A model generated the notes under the pieces. The model had not been told where the DNA came from. It saw nothing but the letters and a program-made list of their open reading frames with translations, and did not search any database. The translations under genes and the position numbers were made by a program. Of a DNA stretch of 64,000 nucleotides, positions 1 through 7,775 are shown one piece after another (position 1 is the stretch's first letter; each line of letters begins with the position of its first letter). The DNA lies in NCBI RefSeq assembly GCF_028693135.1, contig NZ_JAQUVZ010000009.1:1-64000 (forward strand), read 5' to 3'. Origin of the DNA: Methanosarcina sp. Lineage in GTDB: Archaea > Halobacteriota > Methanosarcinia > Methanosarcinales > Methanosarcinaceae.

Positions 1-261
1 CAGGAATGTATATTCAGGAAGTGTGTGGAAGGTGTGGATACCTCAGACCTTGTTGTTGCAATTCTTGACGGTGTGGACGTGGACTCCGGGACAGCCTGGG
101 AGATAGGTTATGCCTATGCAAAAGGAAAACCCGTTATAGGACTCAGGACCGATTTCAGGGCTCTTTCGGACGGAGTCGTGAACCTGATGATTGAGATGGC
201 TATAGTTGCCCTTGCCAGAGATGAAGAAGAACTGCTCAAAATAATGGAAAAGTTCCGATAA
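1..261 (+). CDS. Nucleoside 2-deoxyribosyltransferase-like protein, C-terminal part
   Basis: The reading frame is open from the first base, so the gene begins outside the window and only the last 86 codons are seen. They contain the motif DSGTAWEIGYAYAKGKPV, which matches the segment of nucleoside 2-deoxyribosyltransferase-family proteins that carries the nucleophilic glutamate (E in WEIGYAY), preceded by a DLVVAILDG strand typical of this Rossmann-like fold. Enzymes of this family cleave or swap the base of deoxynucleosides or nucleotides; the exact substrate cannot be told from this part. A T-rich stretch follows the stop codon. The family call is fairly secure, the function is inferred. 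Confidence 0.75.
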   Translation, partial: QECIFRKCVEGVDTSDLVVAILDGVDVDSGTAWEIGYAYAKGKPVIGLRTDFRALSDGVVNLMIEMAIVALARDEEELLKIMEKFR

Positions 262-299
262 CTTTTTTTGTTCCTGTTTATGTGTATACAAACAGACGT

Positions 300-420
300 A
301 CATCTCATTTGCCTCATTTATCTCATTTGTCTCCCTTTTTTCTTCCGATTCATCCCTCTCATTTGTATCTCAATTTGTCTCTTTGTCTCCCTTTTTTTCT
401 TCCGATTCATCCCTCTACTT
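300..420. repeat. Imperfect pyrimidine-rich tandem duplication
   Basis: A segment of roughly 57 bases containing the string CTTCCGATTCATCCCTCT occurs twice (about 339-357 and 396-414), each time preceded by TTTGTCTCCC and a T-run. It lies just downstream of the first gene. No gene is seen here; it may simply be a slipped duplication in a terminator region. Confidence 0.6.
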
Positions 421-698
421 GTCTCTCTGTTTACCATTAAAGGTCATTCCTTTTACCGTTAGAGAGAATCATTTTACAAAAACATAGAGGGATAAAGCCT
501 GTTAACTGGGTCTTAAAAATAACCTTTGTGTTTGCAGACAGATCATAAATATTCGTTTTTGTCGAATATATATTATCTCCCGATTGAGATAAATTTCTAA
601 AAAAGATTCAATATCAGTACCCACAATATATAACGATTATTAATTGGAAATATGTTTATATGGAAGATCCGACATATTAAGTATAGGAGGTTAAAAAT

Positions 699-866
699 AT
701 GACCTTTTCAATGGGATATACTTTTATGAAAGTGAAGACTTCACACGGGCCCGAAGTGTACGTTACCCAGTTCGGGAAACTGGTGAAAGTTGTACCCTGC
801 AGTCCGCAGGTGAAAATATCCGAAAGATATGCAAGCAACTTGATCAGGCAGATCGAGTCAGATTAA
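699..866 (+). CDS. Conserved-looking 55-residue hypothetical protein
   Basis: An ATG at 699 opens a 55-codon frame ending TAA at 864-866. An ideal ribosome binding site, AGGAGG, lies at 685-690, eight bases upstream of the start, and a TATA-like stretch (TTTATATGG) lies at about 655-663. The product starts MTFSMGYTFMKVKT and ends QIESD; it is basic, has one cysteine (PCSPQ), and shows no membrane segment or domain I recognise. The strong initiation signals and the T-rich tract after the stop make it likely that this is a real expressed gene. Function unknown. Confidence 0.65.
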   Translation: MTFSMGYTFMKVKTSHGPEVYVTQFGKLVKVVPCSPQVKISERYASNLIRQIESD

Positions 867-879
867 AAGATAAGAAATT

Positions 880-897
880 ATCCGACTTTTTCTTTTT
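880..897 (+). terminator. T-rich terminator after the 55-residue gene
   Basis: The sequence CCGACTTTTTCTTTTTGAT lies 14 bases after the stop codon. Archaeal transcription commonly ends at such T-tracts; no perfect hairpin precedes it. Confidence 0.4.
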
Positions 898-1154
898 GAT
901 TCGGACAATTTTCGTTAAAGCCCTTTTTTCGGCCGAACCTTTTTCGGTTTAACCTTTTCTGCACAACTGCTACATAGCGTACAGAACCTTTTTTTAACAA
1001 GATCCTGTAATCCGAATTCTCCAGTCTGGCACTAATAAAATTGAGCTTTCCGCATGGAGTCTGTTAACCGGATACTTTTCCAGCAGGAGCTCCTTAACTG
1101 GAGACGAACATGTAGCCCTGGAAATTAACACATCGTCCGAGAGATTGGTTGTCC

Positions 1155-2062
1155 CTTATTAATCGGCTGATTTTTATTCGGATCTCCGAAAATGGAATCT
1201 TTTGTTTTCCTGCTATACCCCTTGCAGGATGAACATGTCTCGTCTGCAACGCAAAAAAGTAACAAAAAAGTAACACGCAGATTCATACTGTCTCCAGGAA
1301 GTAACAAAAAAGTAACATGCGAATTCATACTGTCTCCAGGATAAACTGAATTCAGAACTATCTTCCCTGTCCTAAGAATACTTTTCTTGACCCGGGGAAC
1401 CTCATTCAAATTCACAGACAAATATAAGCACCTCCGCCAGCTTGTCTGGCGGCCCTTCCCAAAAAGAAGAAAGACGTAGAATAGAAAGAAGGAAAGATGT
1501 TTGAGGAAGTAGTAAAAATCGATAGAATCAGATGTGTAATGGATTATTTTCAGGTATAATTAAATTCTGTTTTGATTGCGTTTTCACAGACTTTTTACTT
1601 CAATTTTAATTTATAAATTTTATTTTTGGTCTTTTTTCTTATTTTTTGTCTGAAAGCCGCTCTCCTGCGTTGAGCGTGACAAAAAAGACACAATACAGCT
1701 AATAAGGTTTTACTGGTCATTAATATGTATTCTTCTGCCCATTTGACCTTGCGAAGTTCACATTATAACCTTTAAATTGATCCTCTTGAGCGTAGCGAAA
1801 AGGACAGCGCACTGCAGAGCCGCAACTCTGCCGGGACAAAAAAGACACAATACAGCTAATGCTGTTGCACAGGTCAAAGAGATTTATCAAATAGTCCTCT
1901 TGAATGAAGCTAATTGACATAACCCATCGCTTAGTCCTCTTGAGCGCAGCGAAAAGGACCGCGTACTGTTGCACTTGCAGTGCAACTCCCAGAAAATCTC
2001 CGATTTCCTGAGATCCCAAAGCGCAATTCGGGCGAGGCGCAATTCTGGCAGCAAAACTAGGG
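1155..2062. repeat. Long non-coding dispersed repeat element, copy 1
   Basis: About 0.9 kb without a credible gene. It shares landmarks in the same order with 19200-20065: a TTAATCGGNTGA segment, TTGACC-CGG-AACCTCATT, the hairpin CCGCCAGCTTGTCTGGCGG (1432-1450), GCCGCTCTCCTGCGT, the TGAGCGTGACAAAAA segment, and several blocks of TCCTCTTGAGCGCAGCGAAAAGGAC followed by hairpins. Hairpins here include GCAGAG-CCGCAA-CTCTGC and GTTGCACT-TGC-AGTGCAAC (1968-1986). The GNAT gene follows at once. Reading frames across it are not shared between copies, so I treat it as non-coding. See also 29640-29960 and 43199-43420. Confidence 0.7.
1258..1341. repeat. 42-bp tandem duplication
   Basis: Two adjacent 42-base units, each beginning AGTAACAAAAAAGTAACA and ending CATACTGTCTCCAGGA, differ at only a few positions. 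They lie inside the long dispersed element, and the second repeat copy of that element does not show them, so the duplication is specific to this copy. Confidence 0.75.
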
Positions 2063-2176
2063 ATATCAACCATTTAAAGGTGGACGACCAATAAATTCAA
2101 CCATCCAAAATATAAAGATATAATTTTAATTTTAGATAGAGAAAATAAACCTAACAAAAGAGAGGAATGGGATAAA

Positions 2177-2632
2177 TTGATCAGAACTTACAGGGAAACA
2201 GACCTTGAAGAGATGGTAAGGATCTGGTACGACGCATCAGCCATTGCCCATCCCTTTGTGCCAGCTTCTTTCTGGGCTTCGTATAAATCCGCAATGAAGG
2301 AAAAGTATCTGCCTCTTGCCGAAAATTATGTTTTTGAACAAGAAGGAAAAGTTACAGGCTTTATTTCACTCGTTGGAGAGAGGGTATGTGCCCTCTTTGT
2401 AGCTCCCGACGCGCAGGGAAAAGGAATGGGAAAGGATCTTCTTGAACACGCAAAAGCCCTGAAAGGCAGGCTATCCCTTAAGGTCTACAGGGATAACAAA
2501 AAAGCTATCCTCTTTTATGAAAAGAGCGGACTTAAAGCATACGGAGAAGAGGTTGATGAGCATACGGGCTGCATACAGATTTTTATGGAGTGGGAAATTT
2601 CTAATATGGGGTTTCAAGACTTTGATGCATGA
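2177..2632 (+). CDS. GNAT family N-acetyltransferase
   Basis: A 151-residue protein with the GNAT layout: an N-terminal beta-alpha segment (IRTYRETDLEEMVRIWYDA), a central strand, and the acetyl-CoA pyrophosphate-binding motif in LFVAPDAQGKGMGKDLL (Q/R-x-x-G-x-G/A type) near residues 74-92, then the C-terminal YRDNKKAILFYEKSGL segment seen in RimI/YjaB-like enzymes. It probably transfers an acetyl group from acetyl-CoA to an amine or small molecule; the substrate is unknown. The start is a TTG at 2177, with a purine-rich AGAGGA upstream; no ATG in this frame would keep the first strand. It stands alone after the repeat element. Confidence 0.85.
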   Translation: MIRTYRETDLEEMVRIWYDASAIAHPFVPASFWASYKSAMKEKYLPLAENYVFEQEGKVTGFISLVGERVCALFVAPDAQGKGMGKDLLEHAKALKGRLSLKVYRDNKKAILFYEKSGLKAYGEEVDEHTGCIQIFMEWEISNMGFQDFDA

Positions 2633-2789: not shown

Positions 2790-3803
2790 ATGAACCATGA
2801 AACCGGAGGTAGATCCATTAAAGGGGTAGAAGACTCACTTTTCCAGCATCTTGCACCCGATACGCCGGAAGTTAAGAAAATAAAAAGCCTGCAGGGTAGA
2901 GAGTATGAATACGCCGAGCACATAGGAATAGCAGAATATTCAATTGCCAGGCATTTTTACGAGGCTGACAGAAAAATAAAGGATAAGGATGCAGTATCGG
3001 CATTAAAGAATATCAGAAAAAACGGCAACAAAAACATTTCTTTTTTTAAAGAGGGGCTTGAAAAAGAAATTGTCAAAAACCTGATAGACCTCCTTGAAGA
3101 AAAACCAGTAACCCACCATGAGTTGAAGCTGGTAATAGACTACGTTTTAGAGATTATCGATAACAGATCATGGATGGAAGATGAACAGGCATACATAAAG
3201 TGGGTAGCTTACGTTATGGACCTTTTCACAGAAGAAGAGAATGAAGAGTATGAGAAGAGCATAAAAAAGCTTGCTGCTAAACTGGGTTTGTCCAGTAAAC
3301 ATGCGGACCTCATACTCCTGAAAGGGGACGAAGAAGATTATTTTGAATTTGTAGAGGGGTATGGAGAAGAAAATGAAGGAGATAAAGGAGAGAAAAGGGA
3401 CGAAGGAGGGGAAAGAGACGAAGGAGAAGAACTGACCGAAGAAGAGATGATAGCAGAAGTGGAAAGCAGTTTCCTTTCAATGGAAGACTCCGAGAAATTC
3501 GATTTCCTGCTGGAAAACGGCCCGGAGTTTTACGAACTTACAGGAGTTTACATCTCCGAACTGTCAGAAAAAGGCGAATTTGAGAGGATTCAGGAACTTT
3601 ACGGCAAACTCACTGAAAAATACGACGACTTCATTTACCTGTACGTTTTCATGGGAGCAACCTACTTTGAGATAGAACCTGCCCTTGCAAAATCCTATTT
3701 TGAAAATGCACAAAACGCCCTCGATAAACTCGATGGTCTTTCGGACTCCACAAAAGAAAGATTAAGAGCCAGCTTCCTTAACCTGATCAAGAAAATAAAC
3801 TGA
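2790..3803 (+). CDS. Acidic helical protein, tandem paralogue A (unknown family)
   Basis: A 337-residue protein and the first of three homologous genes in this region. An N-terminal helical domain of about 150 residues begins with LAPDTPEVKKIKSLQ and contains the family hallmark NRSWMEDEQAYIKWVAYVM. A very acidic, low-complexity linker follows (about residues 190-225, rich in E, D, G and K), then a C-terminal helical segment (FDFLLENGPEFYEL through LAKSYFENAQNALDKL) that looks like degenerate TPR hairpins. No signal peptide or membrane segment. A GGAGGG ribosome site lies upstream of the ATG, in an unusually purine-rich leader (2695-2789) made of repeated AAGAAAGAGTAAAGGAG units. I do not recognise the family; a cytoplasmic adaptor or conflict-system role is possible but unproven. 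Confidence 0.75.
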   Translation: MNHETGGRSIKGVEDSLFQHLAPDTPEVKKIKSLQGREYEYAEHIGIAEYSIARHFYEADRKIKDKDAVSALKNIRKNGNKNISFFKEGLEKEIVKNLIDLLEEKPVTHHELKLVIDYVLEIIDNRSWMEDEQAYIKWVAYVMDLFTEEENEEYEKSIKKLAAKLGLSSKHADLILLKGDEEDYFEFVEGYGEENEGDKGEKRDEGGERDEGEELTEEEMIAEVESSFLSMEDSEKFDFLLENGPEFYELTGVYISELSEKGEFERIQELYGKLTEKYDDFIYLYVFMGATYFEIEPALAKSYFENAQNALDKLDGLSDSTKERLRASFLNLIKKIN

Positions 3804-4143
3804 TTGCAACCGAGGTTGGGAATAAACAGATGAAAAACCGGAAAGCCTTATCAGAAGATCATTTATAAGGGCAACCTTCCCGACAAACTTTTTTTGTCAG
3901 GAAAATTTTATTCACTGCCTGAGAATGAGTCTTTTTTATCCCCATGTCTAAGAAATTCTCCTGCTTTTTAATGGCATGATTATCATTATATCATATTTTG
4001 AATTTTATGATAATTTGGATTAGCATATTTATCAATTCTGAAAAATTACCTCAACTATGCAAACCGTTGAACAATGCCCATAATCAGCAATTTTATAACA
4101 GTTCACGGATTATCCTAAGCCATCATTACAGTGTTGCTCACCC

Positions 4144-4622
4144 ATGGCAAAAAACACAACCGGTTCAAACGGCGCAAACCTCGGTTTTGAAGAAAAACTC
4201 TGGCAGACAGCAGATAAGCTCAGAAACAACATGGACGCAGCGGAGAAGTCCTCTTTATTGACGCCCGGAACATGGGAGCTTTGCGGGACCGCACCCCCCG
4301 CGAACTTACAGATGAAGAAGTCCGGAAAATTTCCGACACTTATCATACCTGGCGTCGGGAAAAAGTAGAATGTAGAAAATACGAATACGTCCCCGGTTTC
4401 TGCAAGTCTGCAAGCCTTGACGAAATTAAGAAGCACGATTATATCCTGACCCCTGGCCGCTATGTAGGTTTTGAAGAAACCGAAGACGACGATGAGGAAT
4501 TTGAAGAGAAAATGGAGAAGCTGACTACTGAACTTTCGGAACAGCTCAGGAAGTCGGAAGAGCTGGAGAAGAAAATAAAAGAGAATCTGACAGGGCTCGG
4601 GTATGAACCAAGTTGGAAATGA
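4144..4622 (+). pseudogene. hsdM: Remnant of type I restriction-modification methylase hsdM with large internal deletion
   Basis: The first about 34 codons read MAKNTTGSNGANLGFEEK then LWQTADKLRNNMDAAE, which is the start of HsdM, the N6-adenine methylase subunit of type I systems. Near 4240-4245 the frame changes: the other frame reads GEVLFIDARNMG, then LRDRTPRELTDEEVRKI, and later DYILTPGRYVGFEE, the usual HsdM C-terminal landmarks, running to a coiled-coil tail and a stop at 4622. The SAM-binding and NPPF catalytic parts are absent; given an HsdM of about 500 residues, some 330 codons are lost. The two ends are joined out of frame, so no methylase can be made. A start inside the C-terminal frame (4272) could in principle give a 116-residue tail fragment. 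Confidence 0.85.
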
Positions 4623-4764
4623 ACAATTAAATACGCCGGTTGAACATAAAAAGAGGTGCTGGCTGAACTGAAAAAATAACCAGTTCAACCACGTAAAAAT
4701 AATTGTATCCATCCATCCCTGTTATTAGAAATCAATACAAATTAACAATCGGAGAGCATTAGTT

Positions 4765-5868
4765 ATGGTTTCTGAAGAAAACAATGAATTTGTTGAGGAC
4801 AAGTTATCTTTGTCCGAATTTCTCGTGCCGGATACTCCGAAGATTAAGGAAATAAAAAACATTTACGAGAACGAATACGAATACAGCGAGTATCTGAGTG
4901 AAATCGAGTTTTCAATTGCCGAATATTATTACAAAGAGAACCGGAAAGTTACGGATAAAGATGTCATAAAGGCATTGAAGAATATAAAACAGAACCGTGA
5001 CAAACCCATCAGTTTCTTTGAAAAAGCTCTTGAGATTAAAATTGTAAAAACCCTGATTGAACCTCTTGAGGAAAGCCCGCTTACCGACCATGAATTCATC
5101 CTTGTTCTTGACTATGTTTTGTGGGTCGTTGACAACAGGTCCTGGTTGCAGGATAAACAGGCCTATGTAAAGTGGATAACGTACGTGTTAGGCTTTTTAT
5201 CAGTGGTAGAGGAGAAAAAATACGAAAGCCAGTTCAAAAAATTTGCCCGCAAAATGGGTGTATCCGGATCTCAGGTTGATATGCTCCTTATGAAAAAAGA
5301 AATGACTGATGATTTCTTCGGTGATGCAGGTTTATTTGACGAGGAAGACCTTTTTGAAGGTATTATAGATAAAACCGGGATTCTTGATGAAGACCGAACG
5401 GCAGATGACCTTGAAACCGGTTTCTTTTTAATGACAGATGATGAAAAATTCAATTTCCTGCTGGACAAAGGCCCTGATTACGTCGAACTCGTACAGTCCT
5501 ATATCTCCGAACTTGCGGAAAAAGAAGATTTTGAAAAGCTGCAGGACTTTTACAAAAAGCTCAGTGAAAAAGAAAAGAAATTCTTCCCCCTGCACCTCAT
5601 GGTGGGGACTGTCTACATCGATAAAGACCCGGCATTTGCCAAATCCTGTTTTGAAGAAACTTTGAGAATTGCCTCAAGGTCAAAAGAAATTCCTGAAGAA
5701 ATGAAGGGCGCCCTGAAACTAAATATCCTCCTTCTGGAAACCCTCCTCCCGGAAGAGCTCACTGAGAAACCAGAGGAAAAAACCGATGCGGGCAAAAAAG
5801 GCAAAAGTAAATGCAAATCCAGAAAAAAAGCTTCAAATCAGGATGTTGAAAGCGAAGAAGATATTTAA
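4765..5868 (+). CDS. Acidic helical protein, tandem paralogue B (unknown family)
   Basis: A 367-residue homologue of the genes at 2790 and 6185. It begins MVSEENNEFVEDKLSLSE, followed by the shared LVPDTPKIKEIKNI and NRSWLQDKQAYVKWITYVL motifs, an acidic middle (DDFFGDAGLFDEEDLFEG) and a TPR-like C-terminal part (FNFLLDKGPDYVEL onward to FAKSCFEETLRIA). It carries an extra Lys/Ser-rich tail (KKGKSKCKSRKKASNQD) missing from the other two. The leader GGAGAGCATTAGTTATGGTT is almost identical to that of paralogue C, so these two copies arose by a later duplication that included the translation start region. The role is unknown; the tail might bind nucleic acid. Confidence 0.75.
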   Translation: MVSEENNEFVEDKLSLSEFLVPDTPKIKEIKNIYENEYEYSEYLSEIEFSIAEYYYKENRKVTDKDVIKALKNIKQNRDKPISFFEKALEIKIVKTLIEPLEESPLTDHEFILVLDYVLWVVDNRSWLQDKQAYVKWITYVLGFLSVVEEKKYESQFKKFARKMGVSGSQVDMLLMKKEMTDDFFGDAGLFDEEDLFEGIIDKTGILDEDRTADDLETGFFLMTDDEKFNFLLDKGPDYVELVQSYISELAEKEDFEKLQDFYKKLSEKEKKFFPLHLMVGTVYIDKDPAFAKSCFEETLRIASRSKEIPEEMKGALKLNILLLETLLPEELTEKPEEKTDAGKKGKSKCKSRKKASNQDVESEEDI

Positions 5869-6184
5869 TAGTAGCTAAAAAGAAGATTCTGAATAGAAGA
5901 TAAAAAGAACTCGAAAGAAACTCCTTATAAAGGGGACAGGCTGGTTAGGCAGCTTATTCTGGAAACGGAACCGCCTGAAAATCTTTTAGTTTGAATTTTG
6001 CCCTTCACTGCGCGGCTTTTTTGCAAGCCTCCGGAATAGATGCAATTGAAAGTACAACCGCCGCCATTCCAACCTTCTGGAAAGAACGATAAAAAAGGCC
6101 GTGAAAAGGAGATTCAGCATACAGAAAAAGGGCAGCCAGAAAAGGCTGAACAGAAAATAGATCAACCACCGGAGAGCATTGTTT

Positions 6185-7129
6185 ATGGTTTCTGAAGAAA
6201 ATAACGAGACTGTTGAAGAAAGAATTTCATTATCCGAATACCTGATACCCGACACCCCTGAAATACTGGAAATAGAGAGCCTGGAATGCAGGGAACCCGA
6301 ATACATCATGTATCTGGGTGCTGTTGAGTATTCGATTGCCCTGTATTATTATGAAGGAGACAGAAAAATAGAGGATAAAGATGTCATACTGGCACTTGAG
6401 AATATAAAGCTAAACTACGAATTGGATCTCTCCTTTTTTAGCAGGGACCTCGAAATACAGATTATCAATTATTTGATCGGGGCCTTAAGTGAAAAACCGA
6501 TTACACATCACGAATTCCGGCTTGTAATTGACTATGTCTTGTGGGTTATTGAGAAGCGGACCTGGATGGAAGATAAGCAGGCCTATGTTAAGTGGATCGC
6601 TTACGTGATGGGCCTTTATTCGGAAGTAGAGTCGATAAAATATGAAACGGACTTCAAAAGGCTTGCTGAAAAACGCGGAATGTCCGAAGAAGATATAGAC
6701 CTTCTCCTTTTGAAAGGTGAAGATGATGACTTTTCCGAAGCGATGGATTTTGAAGGTTTTCCCGGAGAAGATATTGGCAAATCCAAACCGGAGATGGACT
6801 TTGCTTTAATGCCCGATGAAGAAAAGTACAATTTCCTGCTCGAAAAAGGTCAAGAATTTTCCGGAATGCTTGAATTCTACATCTACGAACTTGCCGAAAA
6901 CAAAGAATTCGAAAAAATCAAGGAACTCTATAGCAAACTCAGCGAAAAATACCCGGACTTCATGTATCTGCACTTTTTGATGGGAGCTATTCACATATCC
7001 ATAGACCCGGTCCTGGCAAAGTCCTGTTTTGAAAGAACTCTGGAAATGGCAGAAAAGGATGAGAATGTACCCGAAACTATATTAGAAAGCCTCAGGCTGA
7101 ATATCTCTTCACTGGAAGAACAACTTTAA
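6185..7129 (+). CDS. Acidic helical protein, tandem paralogue C (unknown family)
   Basis: A 314-residue homologue, starting at the ATG at 6185 by alignment with paralogue B (both begin MVSEENNE); an upstream in-frame TTG at 6179 is unlikely since it lies against the GGAGAG ribosome site. Shared motifs are LIPDTPEILEIESLE, KRTWMEDKQAYVKWIAYVM, a short acidic linker (GEDDDFSEAMDFEGF) and the C-terminal FNFLLEKGQEF-like and LAKSCFERTLEMAE helices. No catalytic motif is evident in any copy; what is conserved is a Trp/Tyr-rich helical core and a TPR-like tail, which suggests a protein-binding role. It is followed by decayed DNA of a former restriction locus. Confidence 0.75.
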   Translation: MVSEENNETVEERISLSEYLIPDTPEILEIESLECREPEYIMYLGAVEYSIALYYYEGDRKIEDKDVILALENIKLNYELDLSFFSRDLEIQIINYLIGALSEKPITHHEFRLVIDYVLWVIEKRTWMEDKQAYVKWIAYVMGLYSEVESIKYETDFKRLAEKRGMSEEDIDLLLLKGEDDDFSEAMDFEGFPGEDIGKSKPEMDFALMPDEEKYNFLLEKGQEFSGMLEFYIYELAENKEFEKIKELYSKLSEKYPDFMYLHFLMGAIHISIDPVLAKSCFERTLEMAEKDENVPETILESLRLNISSLEEQL

Positions 7130-7191
7130 GAAGAAATCGAAAAACTGGGATATAAAACAAGGCCAGGTTCATATAATAATCATTAAAAAAA

Positions 7192-7368
7192 TTGTTGGAT
7201 TTAAATATACTAGTTCAGACACTACCTGAGAAACCAAGAAGCCCAAATCAAAAGTACAAAACAAAAGATGAAATTGTAAAAATAATAAAAAACATGTATG
7301 AGCCCCTAATTGATGAGAAATCGAGGCAAAAGCTGAACAAAAAAGAGGCAAAAGCTGAACAAAACTAG
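7192..7368 (+). other. Possible 58-codon open frame or gene remnant
   Basis: A frame opening with TTG TTG and ending TAG at 7366-7368 encodes a Lys-rich helical peptide (DEIVKIIKNMYEPLIDEK is a part of it) and ends with a short tandem duplication of AGGCAAAAGCTGAACAAAA. There is no good ribosome site. It may be a piece of a lost restriction-locus gene. I do not recognise it. Confidence 0.2.
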
Positions 7369-7646: not shown

Positions 7647-7775
7647 GAAGAGCAATTTGCCTCTGAAATCAAATTCAAAGAAACCGAGATCGGGATGATT
7701 CCTGAAGGTCTCAAATTAAAGATTCTCTTCTTCCTAAACTCATGTCAGGAAAAATTCGTGCTCAGATTTAAATAA
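7647..7775 (+). pseudogene. hsdS: N-terminal remnant of hsdS (type I specificity subunit)
   Basis: A frame from 7647 to a TAA at 7773-7775 includes FKETEIGMIPEG, which closely matches the conserved opening of HsdS target-recognition domains (usually FKETEIGEIPEDW). The match is lost after about ten more residues and the frame soon stops, so only the first codons of the specificity gene survive. Together with the hsdM remnant at 4144 it marks the two ends of a destroyed type I restriction-modification locus on the same strand and in the usual M-then-S order. Confidence 0.55.

Follow-up and report, generated by a model that had tools for sequence, protein, structure and literature searches.

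In a stretch of 64,000 nucleotides from a Methanosarcina genome (G000; 4.2 Mb in 89 contigs; positions 1 to 64,000 of contig NZ_JAQUVZ010000009.1, hereafter the window), three open reading frames, A, B and C, encode clear paralogues of a protein family that we label FAM. We find FAM to be an accessory gene family, carried as cargo by some adenine-methyltransferase-based restriction operons of Methanosarcinaceae and missing from others of the same type, and kept intact under purifying selection once the host operon is lost. An earlier reading of the DNA letters (the original prediction) had described these genes as a triplicated acidic family of unknown function in a wrecked restriction locus. 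The three frames lie where that reading placed them, and the wreckage is real in the window; it is one state among several, the same genes occurring in intact operons elsewhere. Many new defence functions come from accessory genes in restriction operons, most of which are assumed to depend on their operon. FAM is common to two unrelated restriction systems and outlives both under selection, and so merits testing alone; it is also an uncommon instance in archaea of intact, decaying and orphan states occurring together.

The placement of FAM was evident from gene order. FAM lies codirectionally with intact hsd genes, inside the operon or adjoining it, in several genomes and at several sites. The order is A-hsdM-Slfn-B-hsdS-DUF6884-x220-hsdR at locus L035, hsdM-A-hsdS-hsdR at L043 and L045, FAM (E)-hsdM-Slfn-..-hsdS at L083 and L085, and hsdM-FAM-Slfn-hsdS at L087, where hsdM and FAM overlap. 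A BREX (bacteriophage exclusion) operon at L090 reads pglX-FAM-pglZ-brxL-Mrr, and broken remnants stand in the same order at L091. The usual position in restriction operons is therefore beside the methyltransferase gene, hsdM or pglX, and relatives of copy A are found immediately before or after hsdM. BREX membership is confined to L090 and its remnant counterpart, so FAM is not a regular BREX component, and the accessible text of PMC12839542, where BREX components are named, does not include it.

We evaluated this association against control stretches of equal size. Some of the queries came from FAM loci, a bias towards detection there, but the controls, most of them taken from a few complete Methanosarcina genomes, were searched with the same queries. 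Type I or BREX core genes or their fragments were detected in 26 of 44 FAM loci and in none of 22 controls (P 6e-7). Because many FAM loci are orthologous, they were additionally sorted by eye into about 17 separate host sites, and about 10 of these were positive (P 3e-5). The suggested tie of the family to restriction and defence loci is thus borne out, and its homologues do not lie mainly in housekeeping contexts; the accompanying idea of expansion by triplication was not upheld (see below). Type I hsdM matches per genome were more numerous in FAM-bearing Methanosarcina (Mann-Whitney P 0.01), but genome size and completeness confound this comparison, and we did not use it.

FAM is not a core subunit, since the same operon type exists without it. 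It adjoins five of the seven hsdM genes that are at least 90% identical to the hsdM of L035 and is missing beside the other two (L132, L133); type I operons without FAM are found at L132, L133, L134, L140 and L141. Other genes fill the cargo slots in related operons, namely Schlafen-type genes, DUF6884 and an unassigned 224-residue protein. The Schlafen-type genes (Slfn; AlbA_2 + HATPase_c_4 + winged-helix) stand between hsdM and hsdS at L035:10118-11575, L083:5296-6771 and L087:7505-8950, and are the usual neighbours of FAM in intact type I operons. They constitute another recurring cargo of Methanosarcinaceae type I operons and decay along with the operon, leaving remnants in the window and at L034, L036 and L039. 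In L035, L083, L085 and L087 Slfn takes a slot also used by FAM, the one between hsdM and hsdS, but the two are unrelated in sequence, and FAM is kept where Slfn decays. A recurring pair between hsdS and hsdR consists of a DUF6884 gene and, after it, an unnamed gene for a 220-residue protein without Pfam match (L035:14386-15469, L083:1884-2955, L132:10189-11761). The FAM-less Methanosarcinaceae type I operon at L134 has RloA- and RloB-like genes (named by eye) between hsdS and hsdR, at L134:8603-10549.

We then considered the fate of FAM where the operon has decayed. The hsdM gene is reduced to pieces at 13 loci (the window, L036, L037, L039, L044, L047, L048, L051, L056, L060, L084, L086 and L088), and 12 of these retain at least one full-length FAM, L051 alone having a broken one. 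What remains of hsdM is usually the end closest to FAM, as would follow if deletions halt before a gene under selection. Three broken copies exist: the first copy at L038, that of L051 and a fragment in genome G025. The 40 FAM coding sequences translated were free of stops. Pairwise dN/dS (the ratio of nonsynonymous to synonymous substitution rates, by a simple Nei-Gojobori estimate) ranged from 0.10 to 0.43. The strongest test of selection after decay is provided by L054 and L056, whose hsdM stubs carry the same lesions, indicating that hsdM was already dead in their ancestor; the FAM-A genes of the two give a dN/dS of 0.16 (bootstrap 0.09-0.27). Between the window and L034 the values were 0.27 for A (upper bound 0.43) and 0.40 for B (upper bound 0.58). 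The single-contig genome G002 also encodes FAM-A, and across the whole genome we observed no type I hsdM match at E 1e-10 and no PglZ; there was one weak N6_Mtase match, and HSDR_N was limited to short frames (169 and 399 residues). Together these data indicate that an intact type I or BREX operon is not needed for FAM to be retained. The intact L045 and decayed loci have almost the same sequence over the roughly 90 bases preceding FAM-A, which suggests that FAM may have its own promoter. The hsd genes themselves decay by internal deletion that joins the gene ends (L036, L056, L088 and window 4144-4622 and 7659-7765), at times leaving just 20-30 codons of each.

Although the family is threefold in the window, it did not arise there by local triplication. 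In a tree of 46 members each of the three copies belongs to a separate, old and well-supported clade that also includes orthologues from other genomes of Methanosarcina or its relatives (L034 and L035 for A, L034 for B, L036 and L086 for C). Identity to A is 43% for B and 48% for C. A living operon (L035) has both an A and a B; L056 has two FAM genes, each with its own hsdM stub upstream, and at L036 two hsdM stubs accompany three FAM genes. This is most simply explained by a build-up of copies left behind by operons that differed in the FAM version they carried. The window copies would accordingly have come from such operons, with the hsd genes deleted from inside and FAM kept each time. The family occurs in 42 of 112 Methanosarcinaceae genomes, including 24 of 31 Methanosarcina, and in 9 of 14 genera. 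In a sample of 393 genomes spread over the phylum, full-length relatives were confined to Methanosarcinaceae, and the four positives outside it were weak partial matches. Our literature search retrieved no published paper on the FAM gene family or on Methanosarcina restriction cargo.

The shared features described by the original prediction, a R-[ST]-W-[ML]-x-D-[EK]-QAY-[IV]-KW motif, an acidic linker of variable length and a helical tail, are all real. An AlphaFold2 model is all-helical: residues from about 13 to 180 form an N-domain, an acidic linker modelled with low confidence follows, and a helical C-domain begins at residue 217. Modelled alone, the N-domain reached a pLDDT (predicted local distance difference test) of 91.5 and a pTM (predicted template modelling score) of 0.87. 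No solved structure corresponded to this model, the best hits having E 3.1 in Foldseek and Z 5.5 over 95 residues in VIA; this is not proof of a new fold. Foldseek gave no match at E 0.001 for either the whole model or the N-domain. An experimental structure of this domain, which shows no recognised fold, would therefore be of value. Residues 214-337 of the predicted model matched many tetratricopeptide repeat (TPR) chains with VIA Z scores of 8-10, a range common for helical repeats. The modelled helix pairs of these C-terminal approximately 120 residues recall TPR proteins such as SycD/PcrH, CHIP and Sti1; unlike them, FAM has no Pfam TPR model above cut-off (Sel1 at best E 0.006 in 6 of 36 members; TPR_1/TPR_6 at 0.027 in one), and its N-domain is unrelated.

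Sequence searches of Pfam, NCBIfam, PADLOC, PHROGs and PDB did not place FAM in any family, and profile searches of PDB sequences returned nothing useful. As no known enzyme family was matched in Pfam, NCBIfam, PADLOC, PDB or Foldseek searches, the label of unknown function stands. Matches to GatB / tRNA-amidotransferase (E 0.003, NCBIfam and PHROGs) came from one copy only, far below cut-off, and were taken as chance; those to FBPase, RsbR, AntA, DUF2989, Uteroglobin and DUF5856 were weak and inconsistent. We also considered an active site in the N-domain, where D60 and E105 are invariant, and dropped it, as both acids are located at helix starts (a T-x-x-E capping box; D before a helix). The model is therefore most readily seen as that of a putative non-enzymatic scaffold. 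The N-domain also occurs alone, as 177-residue proteins at L053, L089, L093 and L139, and is matched in profile-profile comparison by an unnamed archaeal family of about 150 residues (hhalign E 7.5e-6, probability 84%). Two such proteins, L108:8505-8948 and L109:7997-8461, have a GY-L-x-W-I motif and no Pfam family; they differ from FAM in having no C-domain and in lying outside restriction operons at both loci, one of the genes adjoining ruvC and ruvA.

These data allow us to hypothesise how FAM might act. FAM is putatively a two-domain, non-enzymatic adaptor, in which the helical N-domain would recognise one partner and the TPR-like tail is predicted to bind a peptide of another. It would act self-sufficiently, as a second defence layer or a defence regulator, with a placement and logic comparable to other restriction-operon cargo such as PrrC or the Schlafen-type genes. 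PrrC is an accessory gene embedded in a type IC restriction locus that senses inhibition of restriction (PMC12707154). Both are optional genes inside an hsd operon and code for none of M, S or R. They differ in that PrrC is an anticodon nuclease, whereas FAM has no recognisable nuclease or ATPase domain, no effector pairing an ABC ATPase with an anticodon nuclease being found at useful scores in Pfam, NCBIfam or PADLOC; FAM is moreover found in BREX too and survives loss of the operon. We consider that FAM probably has a protective role on its own, and an independent adaptor serving as second defence layer or defence regulator is a good possibility, if not yet a probable one. More tentatively, FAM may be a portable adaptor specific to Methanosarcinaceae, combining a helical N-domain of a new kind with a TPR-like tail, that partners the N6-adenine-methyltransferase systems type I restriction-modification (R-M) and BREX and acts as an autonomous sensor or guardian against counter-defence, and would for that reason be kept in several versions after each operon is discarded.

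Several observations weigh against such an autonomous defence role. Members are found in surroundings without recognised restriction genes (L041, L042, L049, L053/L089, L092/L138, L094 and L136/L137), and these ordinary surroundings mean that defence is not the sole possible role. Sequence searches recovered no FAM relatives in plasmids, phages or viral contigs, and hence no direct conflict partner. No effector or nuclease domain with which FAM would stop a virus by itself was found, and the resemblance of its tail to TPR chains says nothing on function.

One alternative is that FAM modulates the methyltransferase complex or forms an additional subunit of it, binding HsdM or PglX via a common feature and tuning modification versus restriction. 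The gene stands directly beside the methyltransferase gene in both systems, overlapping the hsdM stop in g21, and the N-terminal helical domains of PglX and HsdM are homologous according to a published analysis (PMC12839542), so that one partner could fit both. We nevertheless regard this as doubtful, since operons are intact without FAM (L132, L133, L134, L141) and FAM remains under purifying selection after the loss of hsdM, being present also in a genome without a recognisable type I or BREX system (G002).

It is likewise unlikely that FAM serves the host as an ordinary regulator or a housekeeping adaptor and sits by chance at the insertion sites of restriction operons. Selection without the operon, the several copies in non-defence surroundings and the conservation of the leader across intact and decayed loci would all suit a host function. 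Set against these is the position of FAM inside operons, in hsdM/hsdS and pglX/pglZ gaps, at several chromosomal sites and with hsdM stubs alongside, which indicates that FAM travels with operons; it is also absent from 7 of 31 Methanosarcina genomes.

A more improbable alternative is that FAM is a DNA mimic, as the original prediction hinted, or another anti-restriction protein that restrains the adjoining restriction genes. Ocr, an acidic protein, binds the methyltransferases of type I R-M and BREX and inhibits both systems alike (PMC7261183), and these are the two systems that house FAM. FAM is indeed net acidic: A, B and C have a net charge of -7 to -13 per 100 residues, where the neighbouring long open reading frames have a median of -2, but this acidity is moderate and not conserved. 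Across full-length members net charge ranges from -4 to -17 per 100 residues, a spread of about four-fold, and lysine plus arginine (K/R) make up roughly 9-16% of residues. The N-domain of A is only mildly acidic, with 26 K/R versus 34 D/E, and much of the acidity is located in the linker (4 K/R versus 17 D/E in A), which is predicted to be disordered. Members in intact operons are barely acidic, the L087 protein, encoded by the gene overlapping intact hsdM, having -5.5 per 100 and 45 K/R, and the B copies have a basic tail. The dense, conserved negative charge with few basic residues sought as the mark of a mimic is therefore not found, and DNA mimicry is not supported by the charge distribution. 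FAM differs further from Ocr and ArdA in being larger, in having two domains and in lacking homologues in the mobile elements searched, and a restrainer would have no obvious use once the operon is lost.

That the FAM copies are inert remnants still to decay is very improbable, despite their location among pseudogenes and the three broken examples. This reading is contradicted by dN/dS (0.13-0.40 across comparisons, with 95% upper bounds of at most 0.58), including that of the pair whose hsdM was already broken in the common ancestor, and by the full-length FAM at 12 of 13 loci with shredded hsdM.

The features of the window locus are collected in Table 1. The hsdM remnant expected between A and B is present, its two pieces joined through an internal deletion, and that of hsdS after C, though tiny, is real; the tail of a Schlafen gene directly 3' of C had been overlooked. 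B and C have their immediate leader in common (GGAGAGCATT..TTATG), as had been noted, and the sequence confirms it. After copy A, window 3856-3900 reads YKGNLPDK.. and matches the Slfn remnant that follows A in L034; it is likely a second Schlafen scrap.

Table 1. Features of the FAM locus in the window (hsdM codons are numbered on a 520-codon hsdM).
Feature	Coordinates	Strand	Remarks
GNAT acetyltransferase	2177..2632	+	host-side flank of hotspot, outside cargo
FAM copy A, subfamily A	2790..3803	+	337 aa
hsdM remnant, codons 1-34 of about 520	4144..4246	+	joined via internal deletion to next hsdM piece
hsdM remnant, codons 393-519	4236..4622	+	within ORF 4272-4622; 157 bp before FAM-B; Pfam N6_Mtase E 5e-11, PADLOC MTase_I E 8e-34
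FAM copy B, subfamily B	4765..5868	+	367 aa; C-terminal tail lysine-rich
FAM copy C, subfamily C	6185..7129	+	314 aa from ATG 6185; 316 aa from in-frame TTG 6179
Schlafen AlbA_2 / HATPase_c_4 / HTH gene, 3' end remnant	7130..7317	+	residues 430-492; E 4e-22
hsdS remnant, codons 2-22 then directly codons 405-423	7659..7765	+	E 2e-4 and 3e-4

The island occupies a hotspot whose flank runs argC, a nucleoside 2-deoxyribosyltransferase-like gene and GNAT before the variable part, with a phosphoglycerate-kinase-like gene at the other border (window 1-2632 and many of L034-L052). In many Methanosarcina genomes this hotspot holds type I operons, Mrr, SIR2 or remnants of them.

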